Assembly (NCBI GenBank): GCA_002423265.1
Contig: DIVE01000050.1
Coordinates: 16,985-33,246, forward strand
Reading direction: 5' to 3'
Source of the DNA: Methylophilaceae bacterium UBA6140
GTDB lineage: Bacteria > Pseudomonadota > Gammaproteobacteria > Burkholderiales > Methylophilaceae
DNA: 16,262 bases
Notes under the pieces: generated by a model
Told to the model about the DNA's origin: nothing
The model's input: the letters and a program-made list of their open reading frames with translations, nothing else
The model's database searches: none
Part shown: in pieces, positions 5,614-15,566 of the stretch
How positions within the stretch are numbered: the first letter of the stretch is position 1
How the letters are laid out: every line of letters begins with the position of its first letter
Translations under genes and position numbers: made by a program

Positions 5614-6957
5614 GTGTCATTTTTATCATTTGAAGGTAGCGTTTCTCTCGAAGCCAGATGCTCGGGTATCTGTAAAAAGGCATTGCTGATTACCATGATC
5701 TCAATGCCTTTCCTTTTTTCTGCCGGCTCAAACGCAGTAGCACCTGTCATGCCCGCCGAAATGGAACAGGCGATACGCACTGCAATTCAAACCCATCCTG
5801 ATGTCATGGCGGCCGATTCCCAGCGTTTGTCCGCGCATTCGCAAGTGGTCGCAGGCGATTACCGCTGGTTTCCGCGTGCCGATGTTTCCGCACGAACCGG
5901 TAAAAGTGGAGATCGCTATTCCGTTATCGGCTTGCAGCAAACCTTGTGGGATGCCGGCAGGCTGAATGCCGATTACGAAGCAGTCAAGGCCAATGAACAA
6001 GCGGCGCTTTCCGGCAAAGGCGCCACCATGGAAGCCATCGGCATGGCTGCGGCCAATGCCTATCTCAACCTCGCCCGTGCAAGAGAGCAGTTGCTGGTCG
6101 CAGAGGAAAATGTTGAGCAGCATGAACAGTTGCACGCCAGCGTCATTAAACGCAATGAAGGCGGTATCGGCAGCAAATCCGATGTCACACTGACCACTTC
6201 AAGACTTCAGCAAGCGCGTGCAGCGGCGCGGCAGTGGCAGGGTGAAGTCGGCCGTGCCGAAGCCGCATATCTATCGGTCATCGGCTCCGAAGCGCCGGCA
6301 AGCGGTCTGCAGGCGCTTGCGCTGTGGGAAGTCGAAAATGGCCGTGAAGGCGTGATTACCCGTGTTGCTGCACGTTCGCCCACGCTGCAGAAACTGCGCG
6401 AGGAAGTTAGGGTGGCCGAAGCCGTGGTCGATTCGAAAAAAGCCCAGCTCTACCCGTCTCTCTACGCCCGTATCGATAACACCCATTATTTCGGCAGCAG
6501 CCCGGTCGATAACGACACCCGTTTCTCCATCAATTTCGAGTGGCAGAACGACGTTGCACTGAGTCAGCGCTATCATATCGACGCAGCCCAGCATCAGGTC
6601 ATGGCGGCGCGCCGTGCGCTGGAATCCGAACAGCGCCGGCTGACCGAAGCCGCCAGCAGTTACTGGGATGACTACCTCACGGCAATCAACCGCACTGCCG
6701 AACTGGATCAATTTGCCGCTTCTGCAGTGGAGACCGTGCAACTGTTCAAGCGGCAGTTCACCATCGGTCGGCGTTCATGGCCGGAGGTCATGAACACCCT
6801 GCAGGATCTCTATGCTGCACGTAACCAGAAAGTGGATGCCCGTTATGCCGCCATGTCATCGCGCATGCGGCTGGCATTTCTCGGCGGCGAAATGGACGGT
6901 TTTCTGGGCGCTCAAGCCCCGGCAGATGCGCATAAGCAAGCGGCGGAGCAGCCATGA
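5614..6957 (+). CDS. TolC-family outer-membrane channel protein of type I secretion
   Basis: TolC-type proteins form the outer-membrane and periplasmic duct of type I secretion systems. The 447-aa protein begins at a GTG with GGGAG nine bases upstream. The signal sequence is carried by KKALLITMISMPFLFSAG and cleavage probably follows SNAVA (about residue 43). The mature part starts with MEQAIRTAIQTHPDV and contains GLQQTLWDAGRLNADYEA and the alanine- and glutamine-rich helices of the family, seen twice as the internal duplication expects. Its stop overlaps the next ATG by four bases (ATGA), so it is translationally coupled to the ABC transporter. The local order OMP, ABC, adaptor, adhesin matches LapE/B/C-like systems. 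A start at ATG 5695 is possible but would remove the basic n-region. Confidence 0.9.
   Translation: MSFLSFEGSVSLEARCSGICKKALLITMISMPFLFSAGSNAVAPVMPAEMEQAIRTAIQTHPDVMAADSQRLSAHSQVVAGDYRWFPRADVSARTGKSGDRYSVIGLQQTLWDAGRLNADYEAVKANEQAALSGKGATMEAIGMAAANAYLNLARAREQLLVAEENVEQHEQLHASVIKRNEGGIGSKSDVTLTTSRLQQARAAARQWQGEVGRAEAAYLSVIGSEAPASGLQALALWEVENGREGVITRVAARSPTLQKLREEVRVAEAVVDSKKAQLYPSLYARIDNTHYFGSSPVDNDTRFSINFEWQNDVALSQRYHIDAAQHQVMAARRALESEQRRLTEAASSYWDDYLTAINRTAELDQFAASAVETVQLFKRQFTIGRRSWPEVMNTLQDLYAARNQKVDARYAAMSSRMRLAFLGGEMDGFLGAQAPADAHKQAAEQP
5676..5719 (+). other. Terminator-like hairpin inside the signal-peptide coding region
   Basis: AAAGGCATTG (5676-5685) pairs perfectly with CAATGCCTTT (5702-5711) across a 16-base loop, and CC plus six T bases follow (5714-5719). 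This has the form of an intrinsic terminator. It lies 62 to 106 bases inside the TolC-family ORF, so active translation would cover it. Whether it attenuates the operon or is chance is unknown. Confidence 0.4.
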
Positions 6958-9065
6958 AGCAGCATCTGGACCGCGATCAGTTCGTCAACGCGCTGGCATC
7001 CTGGATGCGCTGGCGTGGTCATAGCGTGCCCCATAACATGCTTTCGCAACGCTTCCCGTTCCCTCCCGGCGCCATTGCCTGGCATGCGTTGAGAAAAGCG
7101 GCAAATGAAATCGGCATACATCTCACGTTCAAAAAACAGCACAAAATCATTCCCGGCCCGGAAAGCTTTCCGCTGATTGCCGTCATGGAAGACGGTAGCG
7201 TATGCGCGATACGGCAAATGGATATGGAAGGTCGCCTGCTTGCCAGCCAGGTTGGCGGTGAGACAGCCATCGTTTCTGCCGAGAAGATTGCTGGCTGGAT
7301 ATCTGTCGGCGTCAGCGCAAAAAAGCTGCACCGTGAAATTCTCGGTGTCGCAGATAATCGCAGCGGCTGGTTCTGGGATGCATTCGCCGCCAATTGGTGG
7401 GCTTACCTGCAGGGTGCCATCGCCGCTGGTTTTGCCAGTCTGCTCGGGCTGGCCGCTGCCGTCTACACCATGCAGGTGTATGACCGCGTTATCCCCAGCG
7501 ATTCGACCAACACGCTCATGGTGCTGACTATCGGCGTTGCGATTGTATATGCGCTTGAGCTGGTGCTGCGTACCTTCCGGGCTTACGTGCTGGATTACGC
7601 CGGCAAGAAGATTGATCTCGACGTTTCCGAGAAAGTCTTCAATCAGGGCATGGGAATTCGCATGGAAGCCCGTCCGCAGCACACCGGAACTTTCATTGCA
7701 CAGCTGCGCGAGCATGAATCCCTGCGCGATTTCGTCATGTCGGCCGCTATCTTCACCTTGGCGGATTTCCCTTTCCTGCTGATCTTTCTTGCCGTCATGT
7801 GGATTATCGGCGGCAGCCTTGTGCTGATTCCGATCATTGTCATTCCGGTATTGATTCTTGTCAGCGCATTGCTGCAATGGCCGATGATGCGGCTCTCGCG
7901 CGAGAGCATCAAGGAAAGCAATGCGCGTTCAGGCCTGCTGATCGAGTCGATGGAAGGTGCTGAAACCCTGAAGACGCTCAATGCAGAATGGCGCATGCGC
8001 CGCCGCTGGCGTGAATTGACCGAACTGGTCAGCGCGAGCGGCATGAAGCTTAAATCGATTAGCAACTTCACCACCAATTTTGCCTCGACGATACAGTCTT
8101 TGATGTACGTTGCCATCATCGCCACCGGTGCGCTGATGGTGCGTGATGGCGATATCACGGTGGGTGCGCTGATCGCCTGTTCCATCCTCGCCGGACGCGC
8201 TGTCGCGCCTGTTTCGCAGTTGATCGGCCTGCTCACGCGCATTTATCAGGTCAAGACTTCTGCGCAGACGCTGGACAATATTATGGCCATGCCGGTCGAT
8301 CGGCCCAGTGACGCCAACTTTCTGGCGCTGGAGCGTTGCCAGGGCAAGCTTGCCTTTGCCAACGTGAATTTTTCCTACGGCGAATCCGACGTGGTCGCGC
8401 TTGATATTCCCGAGCTGCAAATTGCCCCCGGCGAGCGTGTCGCCCTCCTGGGCAGAACCGGTTCCGGCAAATCCACCATGTTGAGATTGCTCTCCGGTCT
8501 TTATCAGCCGACCAGAGGACGCGTCCTGATGAACGGCGTCGATATTCACCAGATCGATCCTTCCCGTTTCCGGCACGCCGTTGGCTACATGACCCAGGAT
8601 GTACGGCTGTTTTCCGGCACCCTGAAAGAGAATCTGCTACTGGGTGCCGGTGACGTCAGCGATGACCGCTTGCTTGAAGTTGCCCGTGTCACAGGAATAG
8701 ACCGCTACGTCGCATACCACCCCAAGGGTTTTGAATTGCCGATTTATGAGGGCGGTGGCGGCTTGTCTGGCGGTCAGAAACAGGCGGTCGGCCTTGCCCG
8801 CCTGATGCTTGCGGACCCCGATGTGTTCTTGCTGGATGAACCAACCGCCGCAATGGATCAGCAGACCGAGCGCGAATTTATCAAGGGATTCGGCGAATGG
8901 CTAGGAGAAGGCCGCACGCTAGTAATCGCAACGCATAAGCCTTCCATCCTTACCCTGGTCAATCGCGTGATTGTGCTTGAGCAGGGCAAAGTCATCATGG
9001 ATGGCCCGCGTGAAAAGATATTGCAAGAGCTAGCAGCACCAGTGACCCATATCAAGGTGGCCTGA
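6954..9065 (+). CDS. Type I secretion ABC transporter (LapB/HlyB-like)
   Basis: This 703-aa protein energises export of the substrate through the type I channel. Residues 1-130 match a C39-like domain, but the region lacks a catalytic cysteine (the only one is Cys84), so it should bind rather than cleave substrate. Residues about 145-430 form the six-helix membrane domain (WWAYLQGAIAAGFASLLGLA, YDRVIPS). The ATPase domain has Walker A GRTGSGKS (500-507), Q-loop TQD, signature LSGGQ (604-608), Walker B VFLLDE (624-629) and His661 (ATHKPS). All ATPase motifs look intact. The ATG overlaps the preceding stop codon. Absence of the peptidase cysteine fits exporters of large adhesins or RTX proteins with C-terminal signals. 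Confidence 0.95.
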   Translation: MKQHLDRDQFVNALASWMRWRGHSVPHNMLSQRFPFPPGAIAWHALRKAANEIGIHLTFKKQHKIIPGPESFPLIAVMEDGSVCAIRQMDMEGRLLASQVGGETAIVSAEKIAGWISVGVSAKKLHREILGVADNRSGWFWDAFAANWWAYLQGAIAAGFASLLGLAAAVYTMQVYDRVIPSDSTNTLMVLTIGVAIVYALELVLRTFRAYVLDYAGKKIDLDVSEKVFNQGMGIRMEARPQHTGTFIAQLREHESLRDFVMSAAIFTLADFPFLLIFLAVMWIIGGSLVLIPIIVIPVLILVSALLQWPMMRLSRESIKESNARSGLLIESMEGAETLKTLNAEWRMRRRWRELTELVSASGMKLKSISNFTTNFASTIQSLMYVAIIATGALMVRDGDITVGALIACSILAGRAVAPVSQLIGLLTRIYQVKTSAQTLDNIMAMPVDRPSDANFLALERCQGKLAFANVNFSYGESDVVALDIPELQIAPGERVALLGRTGSGKSTMLRLLSGLYQPTRGRVLMNGVDIHQIDPSRFRHAVGYMTQDVRLFSGTLKENLLLGAGDVSDDRLLEVARVTGIDRYVAYHPKGFELPIYEGGGGLSGGQKQAVGLARLMLADPDVFLLDEPTAAMDQQTEREFIKGFGEWLGEGRTLVIATHKPSILTLVNRVIVLEQGKVIMDGPREKILQELAAPVTHIKVA

Positions 9066-9069
9066 CGTC

Positions 9070-9099
9070 ATGAAACAAACCAGGAAAGCAAACCGTTGA
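9070..9099 (+). other. Nine-codon mini-ORF ending on the TTG start of the adaptor gene
   Basis: An ATG four bases after the transporter stop opens a short frame, MKQTRKANR, whose TGA overlaps the TTG start of the HlyD-family gene (TTGA). It could couple translation of the adaptor to that of the transporter. Alternatively, it may be the true N-terminus of the adaptor with a one-base frameshift near 9094-9096. Confidence 0.35.
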
Positions 9100-10268
9100 A
9101 TTACACAGTCTCCAATAATCAGCGTTTCAAACTGTTGATGGGCGGCATCCTGCTGACTGCCTTGCTTGCCGGTCTGGCAGCCTTCGGCTGGTGGGCCTCT
9201 GCGCATGAACTGGATATCGTCACGCGCGCACCCGGTGCCGTCATTCCAAGTAGCCGCGTGCAATCGATACAGAGCCTGGACGGCGGCATCGTAGAAGAAA
9301 TTACCGTCAAGGAAGGCGATATCGTCGAAAAGGACCAGCTTCTGCTCCGTATCGAGCGTGAAAAAGCACAGGCCATCTACCGCGAAACATTTTCCAGAGT
9401 CGCTTCACTGGAGGCCGCCATTGCAAGGCTACGTGCCGAGGTGCTGGGCGTGCCATTGGTCTTTCCGGAAAGCACGGCCGGATATCCGGAAGTTGTCAGC
9501 GCCCAGCGGACGCTTTACAACCGGCGACTGGGGGCACTGAATGAAGAAATTGCCGTGCTGGAAGAAACCCTGCGCCTGGTCGAAAAAGAGCTGAACCTCA
9601 ATGAGCCCATGCTTGAAACCGGCGAGGTGAGCGAGGTGGAAGTCATCCGTCTGCGTCGTCAGGTCAATGAAATTCGTGGCGGTATTACCCAGCGGCGCAA
9701 CAAATATCTGAGTGAGTCGCAAGCCGAACTGGCCAAGGCGCAGGACGAACTTGCCACCCAGCGCCAATCGCTTGCCGCCAGAAAAACCGTGCTCGATCAG
9801 GTAGACATTCATGCCCCGGTCAAAGGCGTGGTCAAAAATATCCGCATCACCACTCGCGGCGGTGTTGTCCGCCCGGCGGAAGAGATCATGCAGATCGTTC
9901 CGCTCGAAGAAGAGCTGCTGGTCGAGATCAAGATCAAACCGGCCGACGTGGCTTTTCTACGCCCCGGTTTGCCGGCCAGCGTCAAGCTTGATGCCTACGA
10001 TTACACCATCTACGGCACCCTCAACGGCGAGCTGACCTATATCAGCCCCGATACGCTGACCGAAGAAACCTCACGCGAGCAGCTCAAATATTATCGCGGC
10101 ATTGTGCGTACCACGGGCAGCAAGCTACGTAATCCGCGCTCTGAAAAAATCGAAATCATTCCCGGTATGACCGCAAGTGCTGAAATCAAGACGGGTGAAC
10201 GCACGGTCATGCAATACCTGCTTAAGCCGATTACGCGGGGCATCAAGGAAAGTATGCACGAAAGATAA
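9096..10268 (+). CDS. HlyD-family periplasmic adaptor (membrane fusion protein) of type I secretion
   Basis: The adaptor bridges the inner-membrane ABC transporter and the TolC-type channel. The 390-aa protein has an N-terminal helix (about residues 12-34), a first half-lipoyl segment (SLDGGIVEEITVKEGDIVEKDQLLLRIE), a long alpha-helical hairpin, and the second half (VDIHAPVKGVVKNIRITTRGGVVRPAEEIMQIVP). The C-terminal EIIPGMTASAEIKTGERTVMQYLLKPI is typical. The start is an uncommon TTG with AGGAAAG about nine bases before it. The upstream frame is open only back to the transporter stop and contains no ATG or GTG. A mini-ORF ends on this TTG. It is in one operon with the two genes before it, and the adhesin gene follows after 89 bases. 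Confidence 0.93.
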   Translation: MNYTVSNNQRFKLLMGGILLTALLAGLAAFGWWASAHELDIVTRAPGAVIPSSRVQSIQSLDGGIVEEITVKEGDIVEKDQLLLRIEREKAQAIYRETFSRVASLEAAIARLRAEVLGVPLVFPESTAGYPEVVSAQRTLYNRRLGALNEEIAVLEETLRLVEKELNLNEPMLETGEVSEVEVIRLRRQVNEIRGGITQRRNKYLSESQAELAKAQDELATQRQSLAARKTVLDQVDIHAPVKGVVKNIRITTRGGVVRPAEEIMQIVPLEEELLVEIKIKPADVAFLRPGLPASVKLDAYDYTIYGTLNGELTYISPDTLTEETSREQLKYYRGIVRTTGSKLRNPRSEKIEIIPGMTASAEIKTGERTVMQYLLKPITRGIKESMHER

Positions 10269-10357
10269 ACACCAGAAACAGGACGATACGTTCAATCAAC
10301 CAGATAGCAGCAACAGACCAGGCAACAGCAGGGCGCGAGAAAACAAGGAGTAGTGAC

Positions 10358-11734
10358 ATGACAATCAAAATGGTCGTAGTAAGTACAAATCAGCAAGCCA
10401 GGGGTGTAATGCTGAAAAATGGCGAGAATCTGGCAGTCGCCAGTGGAGACAGCATCCGCCTGCTCAAGCCTGCAGATATCCAGACCTTGCGCCGGGGCAA
10501 TGATCTGATCCTGAAAAATGCCAAGGGCGAAGAATTTGTCCTCAAAAATTTCTACGCAAAACCGAAGACTCCTGAAGACGTCCAGCTCTTTACCTGGGAT
10601 GATCCCCTCGGCCAGGAGAAGGAGCTGCTGAGTGAGGAATATTCCGAGACCGTGCAGGTCGCTGCAGTCGAGAGCGAAACGGTTACCGACGCTGCCACTG
10701 CACCAGATGAAGTGGCTGCTGAAGCCGCCCCGGCCGAAGAGGAAGATGACGATGACAAGGCCGCTGCACTTTTGCTTTCATCCAGCGGCGAAGCTCCGAT
10801 CAGCATGCTCGGCGCGATTGCAACCGTAGGCGCAGTGCTGTTGATGTCGCAAGGTAGCAGTGGTAGCGGTGGCAAAACCGTGTCACCGCAAGACACCACC
10901 CCGCCTGATACGCCGGTAGAGCCCGGCACCGTTATTGATGATGTGCCAAATGTCATCGGCCCCGTCGTCAGCGGCAGTACTACCAACGACAACCAGCCTG
11001 GTCTTATCATCCCGCCGCCTGGCCCCGGCGAAACTCCCATCCTATATGTTGATGGCAATGAGACACCGTCCACATGGGATCCGGACACCAACACGCTGAC
11101 CCCGCAGGAGCCTCTCCCCGATGGCGAACACGAAATCACCTACGGTCTTGAAGATGAAAACAGCAATACCAGCGGACAGAGTCCCGGTGTCGTCATCATC
11201 ATCGACACCACACCGCCCGAGACGCCCGACAGTGCCGGCACCGCAATCGACGATGTCGAAGCCATCACCGGCACCATCCCCGATGGCGGCACCACCAATG
11301 ATGACCGCCCCGGCCTGCAGATTCCGCCGCCCGGCGAAGGCGAAACGCCCGTGCTCTATGTCGATGGCGTTGAAACGCCCGCCACCTGGGACCCCGTTAC
11401 CAACACCCTGACCCCGGATGACCCGCTCGACGAAGGTGAGCACGAGCTCACCTACACCCTGCGTGACGAAGCTGGTAATGAAAGCGGCCAAAGTCCGGGT
11501 ACTACACTCACGGTAGACACCACGGCCCCCGCCAAGCCCGCCGCCCCGGAAAGCTACGAAGACAACGTTGGCGAAGAACAGAGCGCCACCAGCACCGCCC
11601 CGGTCACCGACGACGACCAGCCCGGCATCAACATCGGTGCCGGTCACACCGACACCCCCACGCTCAAAACCGCTCATGTCGTCTCGTCACTGGATGCAAT
11701 GTTTCCAAGGAAAGCTGAAGGTCAGGCTGGTTAA
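10358..11734 (+). CDS. BapA-type biofilm adhesin, N-terminal fragment (truncated)
   Basis: The ATG has an excellent AAGGAG site seven bases upstream. Residues about 1-85 resemble the BapA prefix-like domain (RRGNDLILKNAKGEEFVLKNFYA). Next come an acidic linker (AEEEDDDD, about 126-133), a hydrophobic glycine-ending stretch (about 149-172) and Ig-like repeats starting at residues 179, 283 and 387. Full-length relatives have many repeats and end in a C-terminal secretion signal. Here the third repeat stops after Leu436, where the others continue YVDG, and is replaced by 22 unrelated residues and a stop. No RTX motif or secretion signal remains. The product could probably not be exported by the adjoining machinery. 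Deletion, rearrangement or assembly collapse of repeats would each explain this. Confidence 0.85.
   Translation: MTIKMVVVSTNQQARGVMLKNGENLAVASGDSIRLLKPADIQTLRRGNDLILKNAKGEEFVLKNFYAKPKTPEDVQLFTWDDPLGQEKELLSEEYSETVQVAAVESETVTDAATAPDEVAAEAAPAEEEDDDDKAAALLLSSSGEAPISMLGAIATVGAVLLMSQGSSGSGGKTVSPQDTTPPDTPVEPGTVIDDVPNVIGPVVSGSTTNDNQPGLIIPPPGPGETPILYVDGNETPSTWDPDTNTLTPQEPLPDGEHEITYGLEDENSNTSGQSPGVVIIIDTTPPETPDSAGTAIDDVEAITGTIPDGGTTNDDRPGLQIPPPGEGETPVLYVDGVETPATWDPVTNTLTPDDPLDEGEHELTYTLRDEAGNESGQSPGTTLTVDTTAPAKPAAPESYEDNVGEEQSATSTAPVTDDDQPGINIGAGHTDTPTLKTAHVVSSLDAMFPRKAEGQAG
10892..11671 (+). repeat. Tandem 312-bp repeats coding Ig-like domains, third copy cut short
   Basis: Two full units (10892-11203 and 11204-11515) of exactly 104 codons each begin DTTPPDTP or DTTPPETP and share TTND(N/D)(Q/R)PGL, IPPPG, ETP(I/V)LYVDG, DPLxEGEHEhTY and SGQSPG. 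A third unit begins at 11516 with DTTAPAKPAAPESY, a divergent variant, and keeps alignment only to about 11665. The units diverge at the DNA level, so they are old repeats rather than a recent duplication. Confidence 0.85.
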
Positions 11735-11910: not shown

Positions 11911-11987
11911 TGGCGCGCCCGACAGGAGTCGAACCTGTGACCTTTGGCTTCGGAAACCAACACTCTATCCAACTGAGCTACGGGCGC
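11911..11987 (-). tRNA. tRNA-Arg, anticodon CCG
   Basis: Read on the minus strand, the 77-base gene folds into a full cloverleaf. The acceptor stem is GCGCCCG/CGGGCGC with discriminator G and an encoded CCA. The D arm is GCTC...GAGT. The anticodon stem is TTGGT/GCCAA with loop TTCCGAA, giving anticodon CCG, which reads CGG arginine codons. The T arm is ACAGG-TTCGACT-CCTGT. It stands alone, with its own promoter and terminator. Confidence 0.97.
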
Positions 11988-12638: not shown

Positions 12639-13463
12639 ATGGCAACCTACGCAATCGGCGATATTCAGGGCTGCTATTACTCATTTCAGCAGTTGCTGCA
12701 AAAAATCGGTTTCCAGCCGCAGATGGATAATTTGTGGCTGGTCGGTGATGTCATCAATCGCGGTTCAGGTTCGCTCGAAATGCTGCGCTGGATATATCGG
12801 CACCGTCACCGGGTAGTGATGGTGCTTGGCAATCATGATCTGCATGCGCTGGCCGTGGCCGAGGGTTATGTGCCTACTCACGCCAGCGATACTCTGCAGG
12901 CGCTGCTCGATGCGCCGGATGCCGGCGAACTGTTTGGCTGGTTACGCCAGCAGCCGCTGGTCTATCGCACCGATACTTACCTGATGGTACATGCCGGACT
13001 CTTGCCGCAATGGAGTGCCGATGATGCGGTGCGCCTTGCCACTGAGGTGCAGCAGGCACTGAGCGGCAACGGCTATCACGACTTTCTCTCGCAGATGTAT
13101 GGCAATCAGCCGGTGCGCTGGGATGAATCGCTCGCGGGGGTCGACCGGCTGCGCCTGATTACCAATGCCATGACGCGCTTGCGAACCTGCACGCCGCAGG
13201 GTGAGATGAATTTCAAATTTTCCGGCGAACTCATGGATGTTCCGGCCGGATATATTCCCTGGTTCGATGTGCCTGGCAGAAGGTCGGCGGACACTGCCAT
13301 CATCTGCGGTCATTGGTCTGCCCTCGGGCTGGTTCAGCGCTCGGATTTGTATGCGCTCGATACAGGCTGTCTTTGGGGCGGCAGGCTGACTGCCATGCGG
13401 CTGGAAGACAAGGTGATTTTTCAGGTGCCTTGTGCTGCGGAAGATTCACCCCGGCAAATTTAA
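12639..13463 (+). CDS. apaH: Symmetrical bis(5'-nucleosyl)-tetraphosphatase
   Basis: ApaH hydrolyses diadenosine tetraphosphate to two ADP and so controls alarmone dinucleotides. The 274-aa protein is a PPP-type metallophosphoesterase with GDIQGC (7-12), GDVINRG (36-42), GNHDLH (64-69), the HAGLLPQW block, and IICGHWSALGL near the end. GDIQG has Gln where E. coli ApaH has His; this variant occurs in many proteobacterial ApaH proteins. ALDTGCLWGGRLTAMRLED is the family C-terminal block. The ATG has only a weak ribosome-binding site. The 3' end overlaps the convergent acyltransferase gene by 18 bases. Confidence 0.96.
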   Translation: MATYAIGDIQGCYYSFQQLLQKIGFQPQMDNLWLVGDVINRGSGSLEMLRWIYRHRHRVVMVLGNHDLHALAVAEGYVPTHASDTLQALLDAPDAGELFGWLRQQPLVYRTDTYLMVHAGLLPQWSADDAVRLATEVQQALSGNGYHDFLSQMYGNQPVRWDESLAGVDRLRLITNAMTRLRTCTPQGEMNFKFSGELMDVPAGYIPWFDVPGRRSADTAIICGHWSALGLVQRSDLYALDTGCLWGGRLTAMRLEDKVIFQVPCAAEDSPRQI

Positions 13464-14207
13464 ACGCTCTAGGATATGCGCTCTGGCCTCTGCGGCGAGC
13501 GTGCGACGTTCGTGCCCGTTTGCATGCATGGGGGCGGCAAAATCGAGTATTACTACGGGTGAGTGTTGTTTGATTACCAGCCGCATGGATTCGATCATGT
13601 TCCGTTCTCCCCAGTAAGCCATGTCGGTGTTAGGCTGTCCGTCGGCGTCCGGGTAATGGATACCGAACGGCCATACGTCTGTTTTTGCATCGATGGCGGC
13701 TTGCAGCAGGCTTCCTTTGAACGGTTTTACCTCGCTGCCATCCGTGGTGGTGCCTTCCGGAAACACGCAGATACAATCTCCGGCCAGCAGTGCCTCTCTT
13801 GTCAGTCCGGTCATTTTGCCGGTAGCGTGACGTTTTTCTCGATCAATAAAAAGCGAATTGGCCTTGATCGCAAACCAGCCGAATACCGGCCATTTGAGGA
13901 TTTCTGCTTTGGCGACGAAGCGGGTCGTGATGATGCTATTCAGTGCGTGGATATCGACCCATGAGATATGGTTGGCGACCAGCATTACGCCGGTCAGGTC
14001 GGGCGGTGGCGGGTTGCCGCGTACGATGACGCGGATGTTGAGAATATCGAGCAGGGCGGCAGACCATCTGCCGATGGCGCGGTTACGGCGTTGCGGGCTG
14101 AGCCGCGGCATAATCACGGCGCCGATAAAAATGCCGTACAGTGTATGCAATATCATACGGCTTGTGCGGAACAGGCGGGTGGGTTTTGAGGCGTATTTTC
14201 GCTGCAA
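13446..14207 (-). CDS. olsA: PlsC-family acyltransferase, probably OlsA (lyso-ornithine lipid O-acyltransferase)
   Basis: The protein (253 aa from TTG) has an N-terminal membrane helix (about residues 17-34), then NHISWVD with the HX4D pair His80/Asp85, IDREK at 121, and FPEGTT (149-154), the catalytic and substrate motifs of glycerolipid acyltransferases. On motifs alone it could be a 1-acylglycerol-3-phosphate acyltransferase. It starts two bases after the stop of an OlsB-like gene. The olsB-olsA order is that of rhizobial ornithine-lipid operons, so I favour O-acylation of lyso-ornithine lipid. The TTG start at 14207 has no clear ribosome-binding site and probably depends on coupling. ATG 14156 is the alternative but would shorten the basic tail before the helix. 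Confidence 0.8.
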   Translation of the reverse strand: MQRKYASKPTRLFRTSRMILHTLYGIFIGAVIMPRLSPQRRNRAIGRWSAALLDILNIRVIVRGNPPPPDLTGVMLVANHISWVDIHALNSIITTRFVAKAEILKWPVFGWFAIKANSLFIDREKRHATGKMTGLTREALLAGDCICVFPEGTTTDGSEVKPFKGSLLQAAIDAKTDVWPFGIHYPDADGQPNTDMAYWGERNMIESMRLVIKQHSPVVILDFAAPMHANGHERRTLAAEARAHILERLNLPG

Positions 14208-14959: not shown

Positions 14960-14992
14960 TTGTGCTTTCCTGTTCTATTGAAAACAGGAGAG

Positions 14993-15048
14993 ACTTTACG
15001 AATTCAAGGTGACAGACTGGTGACAGCTTCTTGAAAGTTCGGTGACTG
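14993..15048 (-). promoter_or_regulatory. Pho box (PhoB site) and -10 of the olsB-olsA operon
   Basis: On the minus strand the sequence CTGTCAC-CAGT-CTGTCAC (plus 15026-15009) is two identical 7-bp repeats separated by 4 bp, the architecture of the PhoB box (consensus CTGTCAT-A(A/T)A(A/T)-CTGTCA(C/T)). Upstream, in the same 11-bp phase, are CTTTCAA (15037-15031) and CAGTCAC (15048-15042), matching five and six of seven bases. Exactly 10 bp after the last repeat comes TAAAGT (14998-14993), a -10-like hexamer, the spacing seen at PhoB-activated promoters where the box replaces the -35. The olsB ATG is 33 bases further on. Confidence 0.8.
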
Positions 15049-15067
15049 CCAAGGCGGACAGTCACCG
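15040..15067 (-). other. Hairpin downstream of the lipoprotein gene
   Basis: CGGTGACTG (15040-15048) pairs perfectly with CAGTCACCG (15059-15067) around ten bases, 15 bases after the lipoprotein stop. No T-run follows on the minus strand, so it is at best a weak or Rho-assisted transcript end. One arm coincides with the most upstream Pho-type repeat. Confidence 0.5.
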
Positions 15068-15082
15068 GTTACTGGTGCGTGT

Positions 15083-15535
15083 TCAGTGACTGACGCGGGT
15101 GACACCGCCGGATTCGATCAGGCGCACGCGCTGGCCGGGTGCGAATGCGACATCGGCTTCCTGAACGATGGCGACCATGCCGCCGCTGTCGAGCTTGACG
15201 GTGATTTCCAGACCGTCCTGACGGGTGATGACTTCTTCGGCAGCGGAACCGGCAAGCCCGCCGGCAACCGCACCGACCACGGTTGCGATCGCCGCGCCGC
15301 GGCCACCGCCGATGGTACTGCCGGCGATGCCGCCAACTGCTGCACCGGCAACGGTGCCAACAGGCGTTTTTGTACCTTCGATTTTGACTGTGCGCACGCT
15401 TTCGACGACACCGGTGCGTATGGTTTGCGTTTTGCGCGCTTCATCGCGGCTGTAAACGCTGCCGGATTGCGAGCTGGCGCAGCCGGCAAGAAACAGTGAT
15501 AGTGTCATCAGAACGAGTATGCGGGTGGTTTTCAT
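15083..15535 (-). CDS. Glycine-zipper outer-membrane lipoprotein (SlyB/Pcp-like)
   Basis: The protein (150 aa) has a lipoprotein signal peptide with lipobox LAGC (16-19), so Cys19 should be lipidated. It is followed by a glycine-zipper double helix (about residues 60-103: VAGAAVGGIAGSTIGGG and VVGAVAGGLAGSAAEE) and a small C-terminal beta domain (ITVKLDSGGMVAIVQ, FAPGQRVRLIESGGVTRV). This is the plan of SlyB/17-kDa-antigen proteins, which act in envelope stability. I chose the ATG at 15535 because GTGAGG lies six bases before it; an ATG three bases upstream and a GTG at 15547 are in frame but spaced worse. It follows the kinase gene by 31 bases. Specific function unknown. Confidence 0.88.
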   Translation of the reverse strand: MKTTRILVLMTLSLFLAGCASSQSGSVYSRDEARKTQTIRTGVVESVRTVKIEGTKTPVGTVAGAAVGGIAGSTIGGGRGAAIATVVGAVAGGLAGSAAEEVITRQDGLEITVKLDSGGMVAIVQEADVAFAPGQRVRLIESGGVTRVSH

Positions 15536-15566
15536 CATGGGCCTCACTTTTTGGAATAGGGTTGAT

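Follow-up and report, generated by a model that had tools for sequence, protein, structure and literature searches.

The olsB genes of Methylophilaceae, a family of methanol-using bacteria, appear to be preceded by a PhoB-type promoter that is joined to an RNA hairpin covering the ribosome-binding site (RBS). The Pho box is real and its prediction sound, but it is ordinary; the finding reported here is the promoter-linked hairpin over the RBS, whose two arms co-vary across the family. The preliminary description of this region, which dealt with the Pho box, omitted the hairpin, which is the less expected part.

In the mechanism that we propose, PhoB bound to a double Pho box of four 11-bp units would replace the -35 element of a sigma-70 promoter driving olsBA, and RNA polymerase would start just past the -10 hexamer TAAAGT. 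The DNA from the -10/start region to the olsB start would also encode an RNA hairpin, the 3' arm of which is the RBS. RNA from the PhoB promoter, in which the 5' arm would be wholly or mostly missing, would be translated, while read-through RNA from the upstream glycine-zipper gene would keep the whole hairpin and its translation would be blocked. Until phosphate runs short, such a lock would hold back the synthesis of ornithine lipids, which are membrane lipids free of phosphorus, despite the neighbour's transcription crossing the gene. We assign this whole mechanism, a PhoB promoter plus a hairpin lock against read-through RNA, a probability of about 0.6. It draws on features read or computed from sequence, namely the array, the -10, their conservation, the presence of PhoB/PhoR, the hairpin, its co-varying arms and a computed difference in folding.

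The olsB-olsA locus and its four-unit Pho array

The window, that is, the whole stretch of 16,262 nucleotides analysed (G000:C92:16985-33246), comes from an assembly of 1.76 Mb in 147 contigs that is 78% complete. The features on which the argument depends are as follows.

13446..14207, minus strand: probable olsA, lyso-ornithine-lipid O-acyltransferase (PF01553), 2 nt past olsB, with a predicted start codon
14210..14959, minus strand: probable olsB, 249 aa, ornithine N-acyltransferase (GNAT, PF13444)
14968..14976, minus strand: 3' arm of the leader hairpin, AGAACAGGA, including the Shine-Dalgarno AGGA (14971-14968)
14981..14989, minus strand: 5' arm of the leader hairpin, TCCTGTTTT, spanning the predicted transcription start
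14985..14986, minus strand: predicted transcription start of the PhoB promoter, the 7th-8th base past the -10, from -10 geometry
14993..14998, minus strand: -10 hexamer TAAAGT, 10 nt past Pho unit 4
15009..15015, minus strand: Pho unit 4, CTGTCAC, perfect copy
15020..15026, minus strand: Pho unit 3, CTGTCAC, perfect copy
15031..15037, minus strand: Pho unit 2, CTTTCAA, weaker copy; a unit at the same phase in 98% of 95 leaders
15042..15048, minus strand: Pho unit 1, CAGTCAC, weaker copy; a unit at the same phase in 97% of 95 family leaders
15041..15066, minus strand: second hairpin, GGTGACTG...CAGTCACC, seen by eye in the gap that separates the array from the stop codon of the upstream gene
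15083..15547, minus strand: glycine-zipper protein gene, co-directional with and upstream of olsB, the proposed source of read-through RNA

The top named matches of the olsB product are two OlsB models (176.1 and 163.3 bits, with NCBIfam cut-offs of 320 and 350), and those of the olsA product are OlsA models (124.5 and 112.4 bits, cut-offs 300). As neither product reaches its curated NCBIfam equivalog cut-off (176.1 against 320; 124.5 against 300), both genes are named as probable only; the short names of these models suggest lineage-specific sets. The domain types (PF13444 and PF01553) and the adjacent olsB-olsA gene order are as expected for this pair. Thus the earlier identification of OlsB and OlsA agrees with the best named matches, the domains and the gene order, but falls short of the curated scores. 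The closest named relatives of the OlsB protein, from isolate MTYP (89% identity), HGW-Betaproteobacteria-1 (85%), UBA7525 (84%) and Methylovorus (79%), belong to Methylophilaceae or their kin, and therefore the host had rightly been placed among the betaproteobacteria.

Several further observations concern the surroundings of these genes. The genes apaH (12639-13463, plus strand) and olsA (14207-13446, minus strand) are convergent, and their 3' ends overlap by 18 nt (13446-13463). A type I secretion set, consisting of a TolC-like protein, an LssB-type ABC transporter, an HlyD-type adaptor and a bacterial Ig-like domain protein, lies at 5614-11734, and a tRNA gene was detected with Rfam at 11914-11987 on the minus strand. 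One relative, G025, carries two olsB-like genes approximately 6 kb apart (C4:1501256-1501954 and 1507706-1508422). In 13 relatives olsB lies approximately 9-14 kb from phoB on one contig (G001 C4, G003 C1, G005 C7, G006 C1, G007 C2, G011 C1, G016 C30, G020 C11, G021 C10, G024 C1, G029 C3, G031 C18 and G034 C1); the two genes are widely separated in others, e.g., G023, G026 and G033, and are on separate contigs in the source genome. Among the genomes listed for g15, which like g14 is a genus with small genomes, an OlsB match was found in 7 and none in 20, with 20 more matchless genomes outside that list; the sole g15 upstream scored, L220, has no Pho box.

Two perfect CTGTCAC repeats in 11-bp phase, two weaker copies and a TAAAGT at 10 bp, as originally described, are all present on the minus strand, and the coordinates given for the Pho array and the -10 (14993..15048) are exact. 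The units are spaced exactly 11 bp apart and are followed by 10 nt and the TAAAGT, and the spacers between them are not A-rich in the source genome. The array occupies the position of a -35 element, as is typical of PhoB-activated promoters. Pho unit 1 is also the 3' arm of the second hairpin (15041..15066), which is terminator-like and lacks a T run; a similar hairpin is visible by eye at loci L008, L010 and L011 and absent from L009.

Within the assembly (78% complete), CTGTCAYNNNNCTGTCAY with at most two mismatches has 35 matches, whereas the reversed pattern, used as a control, has 10; only the olsB site matches without a mismatch. Thirty-three of the 35 matches were inspected individually: those placed like promoters include the sites before phoB, the second pstS and a porin-like gene, and many of the rest of the 33 overlap open frames and are chance-like. 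The motif TGTCACGTTTTTGTCAC was also seen at G000:C122:5910-5927 and G000:C43:18709-18726, in a similar setting, directly before a tRNA-like sequence (by eye).

Two of the refuting conditions named in the preliminary description, absence of PhoB/PhoR and loss of the repeats in relatives, came out in favour of its prediction. PhoB and PhoR were both found above their cut-offs in the source genome (PhoB, 355.4 bits against 296.2; PhoR, 438.2 against 334.2), side by side on contig C129, and PhoB is above its cut-off in 54 of 61 genomes, the source genome included. Contig C136 carries two PstS genes (PstS-family model TIGR02136), PstC and PstA, all above cut-offs. The source genome's phoB, second pstS and porin-like promoters share the olsB layout of a box, 10 nt and a -10: ATGTCATCAATATGTCAC precedes phoB; TTGTCACAAAACCGTCAT, 10 nt and TAAAGT precede the second of the two pstS genes; and CCGTCATTAATCTGTCAC, 10 nt and CAAAAT precede the porin-like gene, which looks like a phosphate porin and was named by eye, with no NCBIfam match.

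An independent matrix of 34 positions (18-bp box, 10 nt, -10) was built from 27 of 29 phoB and pstS promoters and contained no olsB sequence. The two promoters left out fell below the seed score, one of them, at L095, because the upstream taken for it belonged to another frame; the pstS locus L096, a near-copy of L095, had been omitted beforehand, and the phoB promoters came from 14 of 15 loci, phoB not having been found at L124. Scanned over both strands of the window, this matrix gave 18.0 for the olsB site, far above the next best sites at -4.2 and then -4.6 (the overlapping upstream pair). The training promoters score 28.6-41.7 on their own matrix, a range that is not cross-validated and comes from a set including the source genome's own phoB and a near-copy of it; by that measure the olsB box is the weaker one, a difference that probably stems from its lack of A-rich spacers.

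The repeats are also kept in relatives: 104 of 123 Methylophilaceae olsB upstreams outscored all of their 100 shuffles, these being approximate first-order shuffles of upstreams that end at the protein match rather than the start codon in 80 of the 123 loci. Promoter stretches L221-L236 and L239 were mostly left out of the analysis. When the box was picked on two units and the -10 alone, in 95 of 104 olsB leaders, unit-like sequence was found 11 and 22 bp upstream of it in 98% and 97%, compared with 0-12% at off-phase offsets (two exceptions, at 20% and 23%), and a fifth unit was not seen (12%). These extra units are absent at most phoB promoters (present in 1/14 and 2/14) and pstS promoters (1/13 and 0/13). 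Because the in-phase units are conserved at olsB and not at phoB or pstS, the two weaker copies are genuine members of the array, and the four-unit double box, to which two PhoB dimers might bind cooperatively, is a conserved trait of olsB in Methylophilaceae, where phoB and pstS carry two units. The claim of a PhoB-type promoter before olsB is therefore supported by the array, the -10 spacing, the conservation and the presence of PhoB/PhoR, and PhoB control of olsBA is very likely.

The leader hairpin and the co-variation of its arms

Between the -10 and the olsB start, the source genome encodes the hairpin TCCTGTTTT-caat-AGAACAGGA, and its nearest relative a longer one, CTTTCCTGTTTT-caat-AGAACAGGAAAG. 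Arms with other letters stand in the same place in other genera (GTTCCCCTG/CAGGGGAAC, TCCTGACTGT/GCAGTCAGGA, CATAACATCTCTCC/GGAGAGATGTTATG, TATCATCTCTTC/GGAGAGATGATA, CATATTATCTCTCC/GGAGAGATAATATG and CATTAAAGTCTCC/GGAGACTTTAATG), several of them with the ATG inside the 3' arm and the -10 hexamer inside the 5' arm. Across the family, the 3' arm lies over the Shine-Dalgarno and often the ATG, and the 5' arm usually extends into the -10.

The best uninterrupted stem within the last 48 nt plus the start codon was compared with those of 200 exact dinucleotide shuffles. Starts were found for 108 of 126 upstreams, and removal of the duplicates L237, L238 and L240 and of L206, which had a wrong start, left 104 leaders; the 18 start-less upstreams and L206 make up 19 leaders added afterwards. 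In the first set, at most 2 of 200 shuffles were as good in 52 of 104 leaders and at most 10 of 200 in 59, and the corresponding numbers for the 19 added leaders were 3 and 4. Of the combined 123 olsB leaders, 55 have a stem that is significant at p <= 0.01 and 63 have one at p <= 0.05; 68 have none at p <= 0.01. The controls, at loci in the same family or in related ones, were leaders of other open frames that encode 140 aa or more and have an ATG and a good Shine-Dalgarno, some of these frames being possibly non-genes; they gave 0/91 at p <= 0.01 and 3/91 at p <= 0.05. At least one significant leader hairpin was found in 14 of 22 sampled genera, bearers of the hairpin including Methylovorus and Methylobacillus, and the stem of the source genome, with 9 pairs, was equalled by 1 of 200 shuffles. 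Searched with Rfam at gathering scores, the window yielded the tRNA alone and no family on the olsB leader. The genus g14 retains the olsB Pho box without the leader hairpin in 6/6.

To look beyond Methylophilaceae, 51 of 80 loci were taken, 47 of which were not recognised as belonging to the family; stems at p <= 0.01 occurred in 7 of the 47 loci, and 22 of 47 had at most 20 of 200 shuffles as good. The stem of L315, one of the 7, is distant from the Shine-Dalgarno, and the stems outside the family are a weaker sign, suggestive only.

The two arms were compared without an alignment, by pairing the 14 nt from the -10 onward with the last 14 nt plus the start codon in 84 distinct leaders. The leaders' own 5' and 3' partners scored 16.93, compared with 12.18 +/- 0.33 for permuted partners, a value reached in 0 of 5000 permutations; when a single genome drawn at random stood for each of 21 genera, own partners scored 16.15 against 11.24 and were higher in 200 of 200 draws. 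Even the -10 hexamer, set against the last 6 nt plus the start codon, gave 7.60 versus 6.35 (0/5000, 84 leaders). A complement of the -10 hexamer of at least 5 nt is present in the spacer between Shine-Dalgarno and ATG, or at the leader end, in 16 of 84 leaders; the pairs are TAACAT/ATGTTA (7), TAAAGT/ACTTTA (3), TATTAT/ATAATA (2), TATCAT/ATGATA (2), TACCAT/ATGGTA (1) and TAGAGT/ACTCTA (1). In alignment A1, the 29 rows of which were chosen out of 53 stem-bearing leaders and are hence biased towards structure, the covariation score was 0.221, compared with 0.148 for shuffled versions (0/500) and at most 0.113 for slid versions, and pairs with double-sided change numbered 5 versus 4.2 shuffled (200/500). 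Owing to this bias we rely on the permutation tests, and alignments A2 and A3 were excluded from the evidence because MAFFT placed the arms in differing registers.

These comparisons give a high probability that the leader hairpin is under selection. As a sequence feature, the hairpin is strong across the family and moderate in the source genome, and from it we infer a function.

Predicted start-site geometry, proposed read-through RNA and alternative readings

The 5' arm extends into the -10 in 41 of 50 significant leaders with a placed box (50 of the 52 significant leaders), the source genome being outside the 41. A start at the 7th base past the -10 would remove at least half of the pairs in 47/50 leaders and all of them in 29/50; the corresponding counts are 41/50 and 3/50 for the 5th base and 50/50 and 39/50 for the 9th. 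The cost of opening the RBS was computed for 96 of 104 leaders. For those with the hairpin (n=50) it came to 17.2 kcal/mol in long RNA but to 5.3 in RNA begun at the promoter, compared with 10.0 and 4.6 for leaders without a significant stem (n=46) and 6.7 and 4.5 for phoB leaders (n=14). As stem-less leaders also fold more in long RNA, this difference is partly a matter of mere length.

In the source genome, the 5' arm lies outside the -10, and a start at 14986 costs 3 of the 9 pairs. Here the opening cost is 12.6 kcal/mol if the RNA begins within the upstream gene, 5.5 if it begins at 14986 and 5.0 if at 14985; starts at positions 14990 to 14988, which would keep most of the stem, give 10.9 to 9.1. 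The cost shifts with the exact start, and therefore the claim of a lock in this genome hangs on 2-3 nt; the source genome is a weaker example of the promoter-linked hairpin.

The glycine-zipper gene (15547-15083) runs in the same direction as olsB and stops 123 nt before it, and no standard-type promoter or terminator was called between the two in the window. Among relatives, in which this neighbour was recognised by its C-terminal residues alone, the hairpin is present in 49 of 79 with the gene upstream versus 3 of 25 without it (Fisher 1.7e-5, uncorrected for kinship). The median intergenic distance is 119 with the hairpin versus 168.5 without, and between genera the hairpin goes with short distance (rho -0.61, p 0.012, 16 genera), a link that was absent within the 4 genera tested. 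Both the neighbour and the distance associations ignore phylogeny, and related genomes are non-independent. An association with terminators (hairpin in 4/12 versus 45/67, p 0.049) carries little weight because the calling rule is rough: a hairpin with a T run at L032, visible by eye, went uncalled. In genus g14 the neighbour is co-directional and 74-105 nt away, and no terminator was called, yet the hairpin is present in 0/6; the lock idea would not have led one to expect this, and it counts against it. In the proposed mechanism, PhoB binding, the start site, the existence of the read-through RNA and the effect on translation are predictions.

The same hairpin might instead lie inside the PhoB-dependent mRNA and regulate or stabilise it, whether as a thermometer, as a lock that responds to a ligand or as a stabiliser of the 5' end. 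A stem over the RBS is a frequent arrangement among regulators, and in the source genome, where the 5' arm follows the -10, a start 3-5 nt past the -10 would retain it. However, the arm runs into the -10 in the 41 of 50 significant cases given above, the promoter's own RNA cannot contain the -10, and the leader has no Rfam family at the gathering score, so that this reading is possible but unlikely. It is more doubtful still that the promoter is a plain PhoB promoter whose pyrimidine-rich start region happens to complement a purine-rich Shine-Dalgarno. A Shine-Dalgarno by itself yields short stems, and no significant stem was seen in 68 of the 123; nevertheless, the other Shine-Dalgarno-bearing leaders reached significance in only 0/91 (p <= 0.01) and 3/91 (p <= 0.05), and the pairing goes beyond the Shine-Dalgarno into the spacer and the ATG and co-varies with the -10 region.

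The repeat is palindromic and overlaps the -10 and/or +1, as would a DNA operator for a repressor overlapping the start site; this was rejected, as the 52 significant stems have 39 distinct 5' arms and the arms vary while the pairing is conserved, which leaves it a very small probability. The slightest chance of all goes to the hairpin ending the upstream transcript, as its 3' end or as a terminator: in the window, no terminator was called in the stretch separating olsB from the gene before it, but no T run follows the leader hairpin, which abuts the start codon, and a terminator formed at that spot would stop the PhoB transcript too.

Relation to known systems and biological meaning

The proposed lock resembles the protection of IS10-type transposase genes from outside transcription, in which read-through RNA folds over the RBS. 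Both would fold read-through RNA in this way, IS10 being a mobile element and olsB part of a metabolic operon. A similar case is gene e of phage T4, for which the text available describes long early RNAs that are locked, and late-promoter RNA from which the 5' part of the structure is missing and which is translated well (PMC3014915). As far as the available texts go, gene e and I-TevI are like the olsB proposal in that a hairpin in the long RNA covers the RBS and the RNA of the proximal promoter loses the 5' part of the structure; those are phage genes with late promoters (PMC3014915, PMC2988022), whereas olsB belongs to a lipid operon on a chromosome, where the promoter would be under phosphate control and the effect of the hairpin is a predicted one.

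Compared with E. coli-type PhoB promoters, as given in the available portion of PMC4415409, the olsB promoter shares the direct repeats of 7+4 bp of the CTGTCAY type and the presence of PhoB/PhoR. It differs in its four units (the family's phoB and pstS have two), its spacers, which are not A-rich, and the RBS-covering hairpin. PhoB control of ornithine lipids is already known or predicted elsewhere, Burkholderia included: according to the accessible parts of these reports, Pho boxes precede olsB in 21 of 43 Burkholderia sensu lato genomes, or in 43 of 43 by a second matrix (data not shown) (PMC7814305), and a Pho box before olsB is reported in Acinetobacter (PMC11828411). These are the same gene and the same predicted regulator in other families, and the accessible parts mention Pho boxes and no leader hairpin. 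The link between PhoB and olsB is thus less novel than the preliminary description implied. No report of such a leader hairpin for olsB was found in the open-access literature searched.

Taken alone, the Pho box extends a known regulon to another family. We incline, by a small degree, to the broader reading that one chromosomal stress operon holds an activator-dependent promoter and a translational lock in the same nucleotides, with the -10 often doubling as the 5' arm, only the PhoB-started RNA being translatable, and the -10 region and the RBS spacer having co-evolved family-wide. If this is true, a cellular operon would have translational insulation in the style of phage T4, its output coming from the right promoter alone, and would be fully silent in phosphate-rich cells although its neighbour is transcribed. 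The lock predicts one gene with two RNAs, just one of which is translated. In addition, the co-variation between the -10 region and the RBS provides a sequence signature for searching other chromosomes, and, if the arrangement is general, promoter-in-hairpin insulators may be common yet overlooked in bacterial chromosomes.
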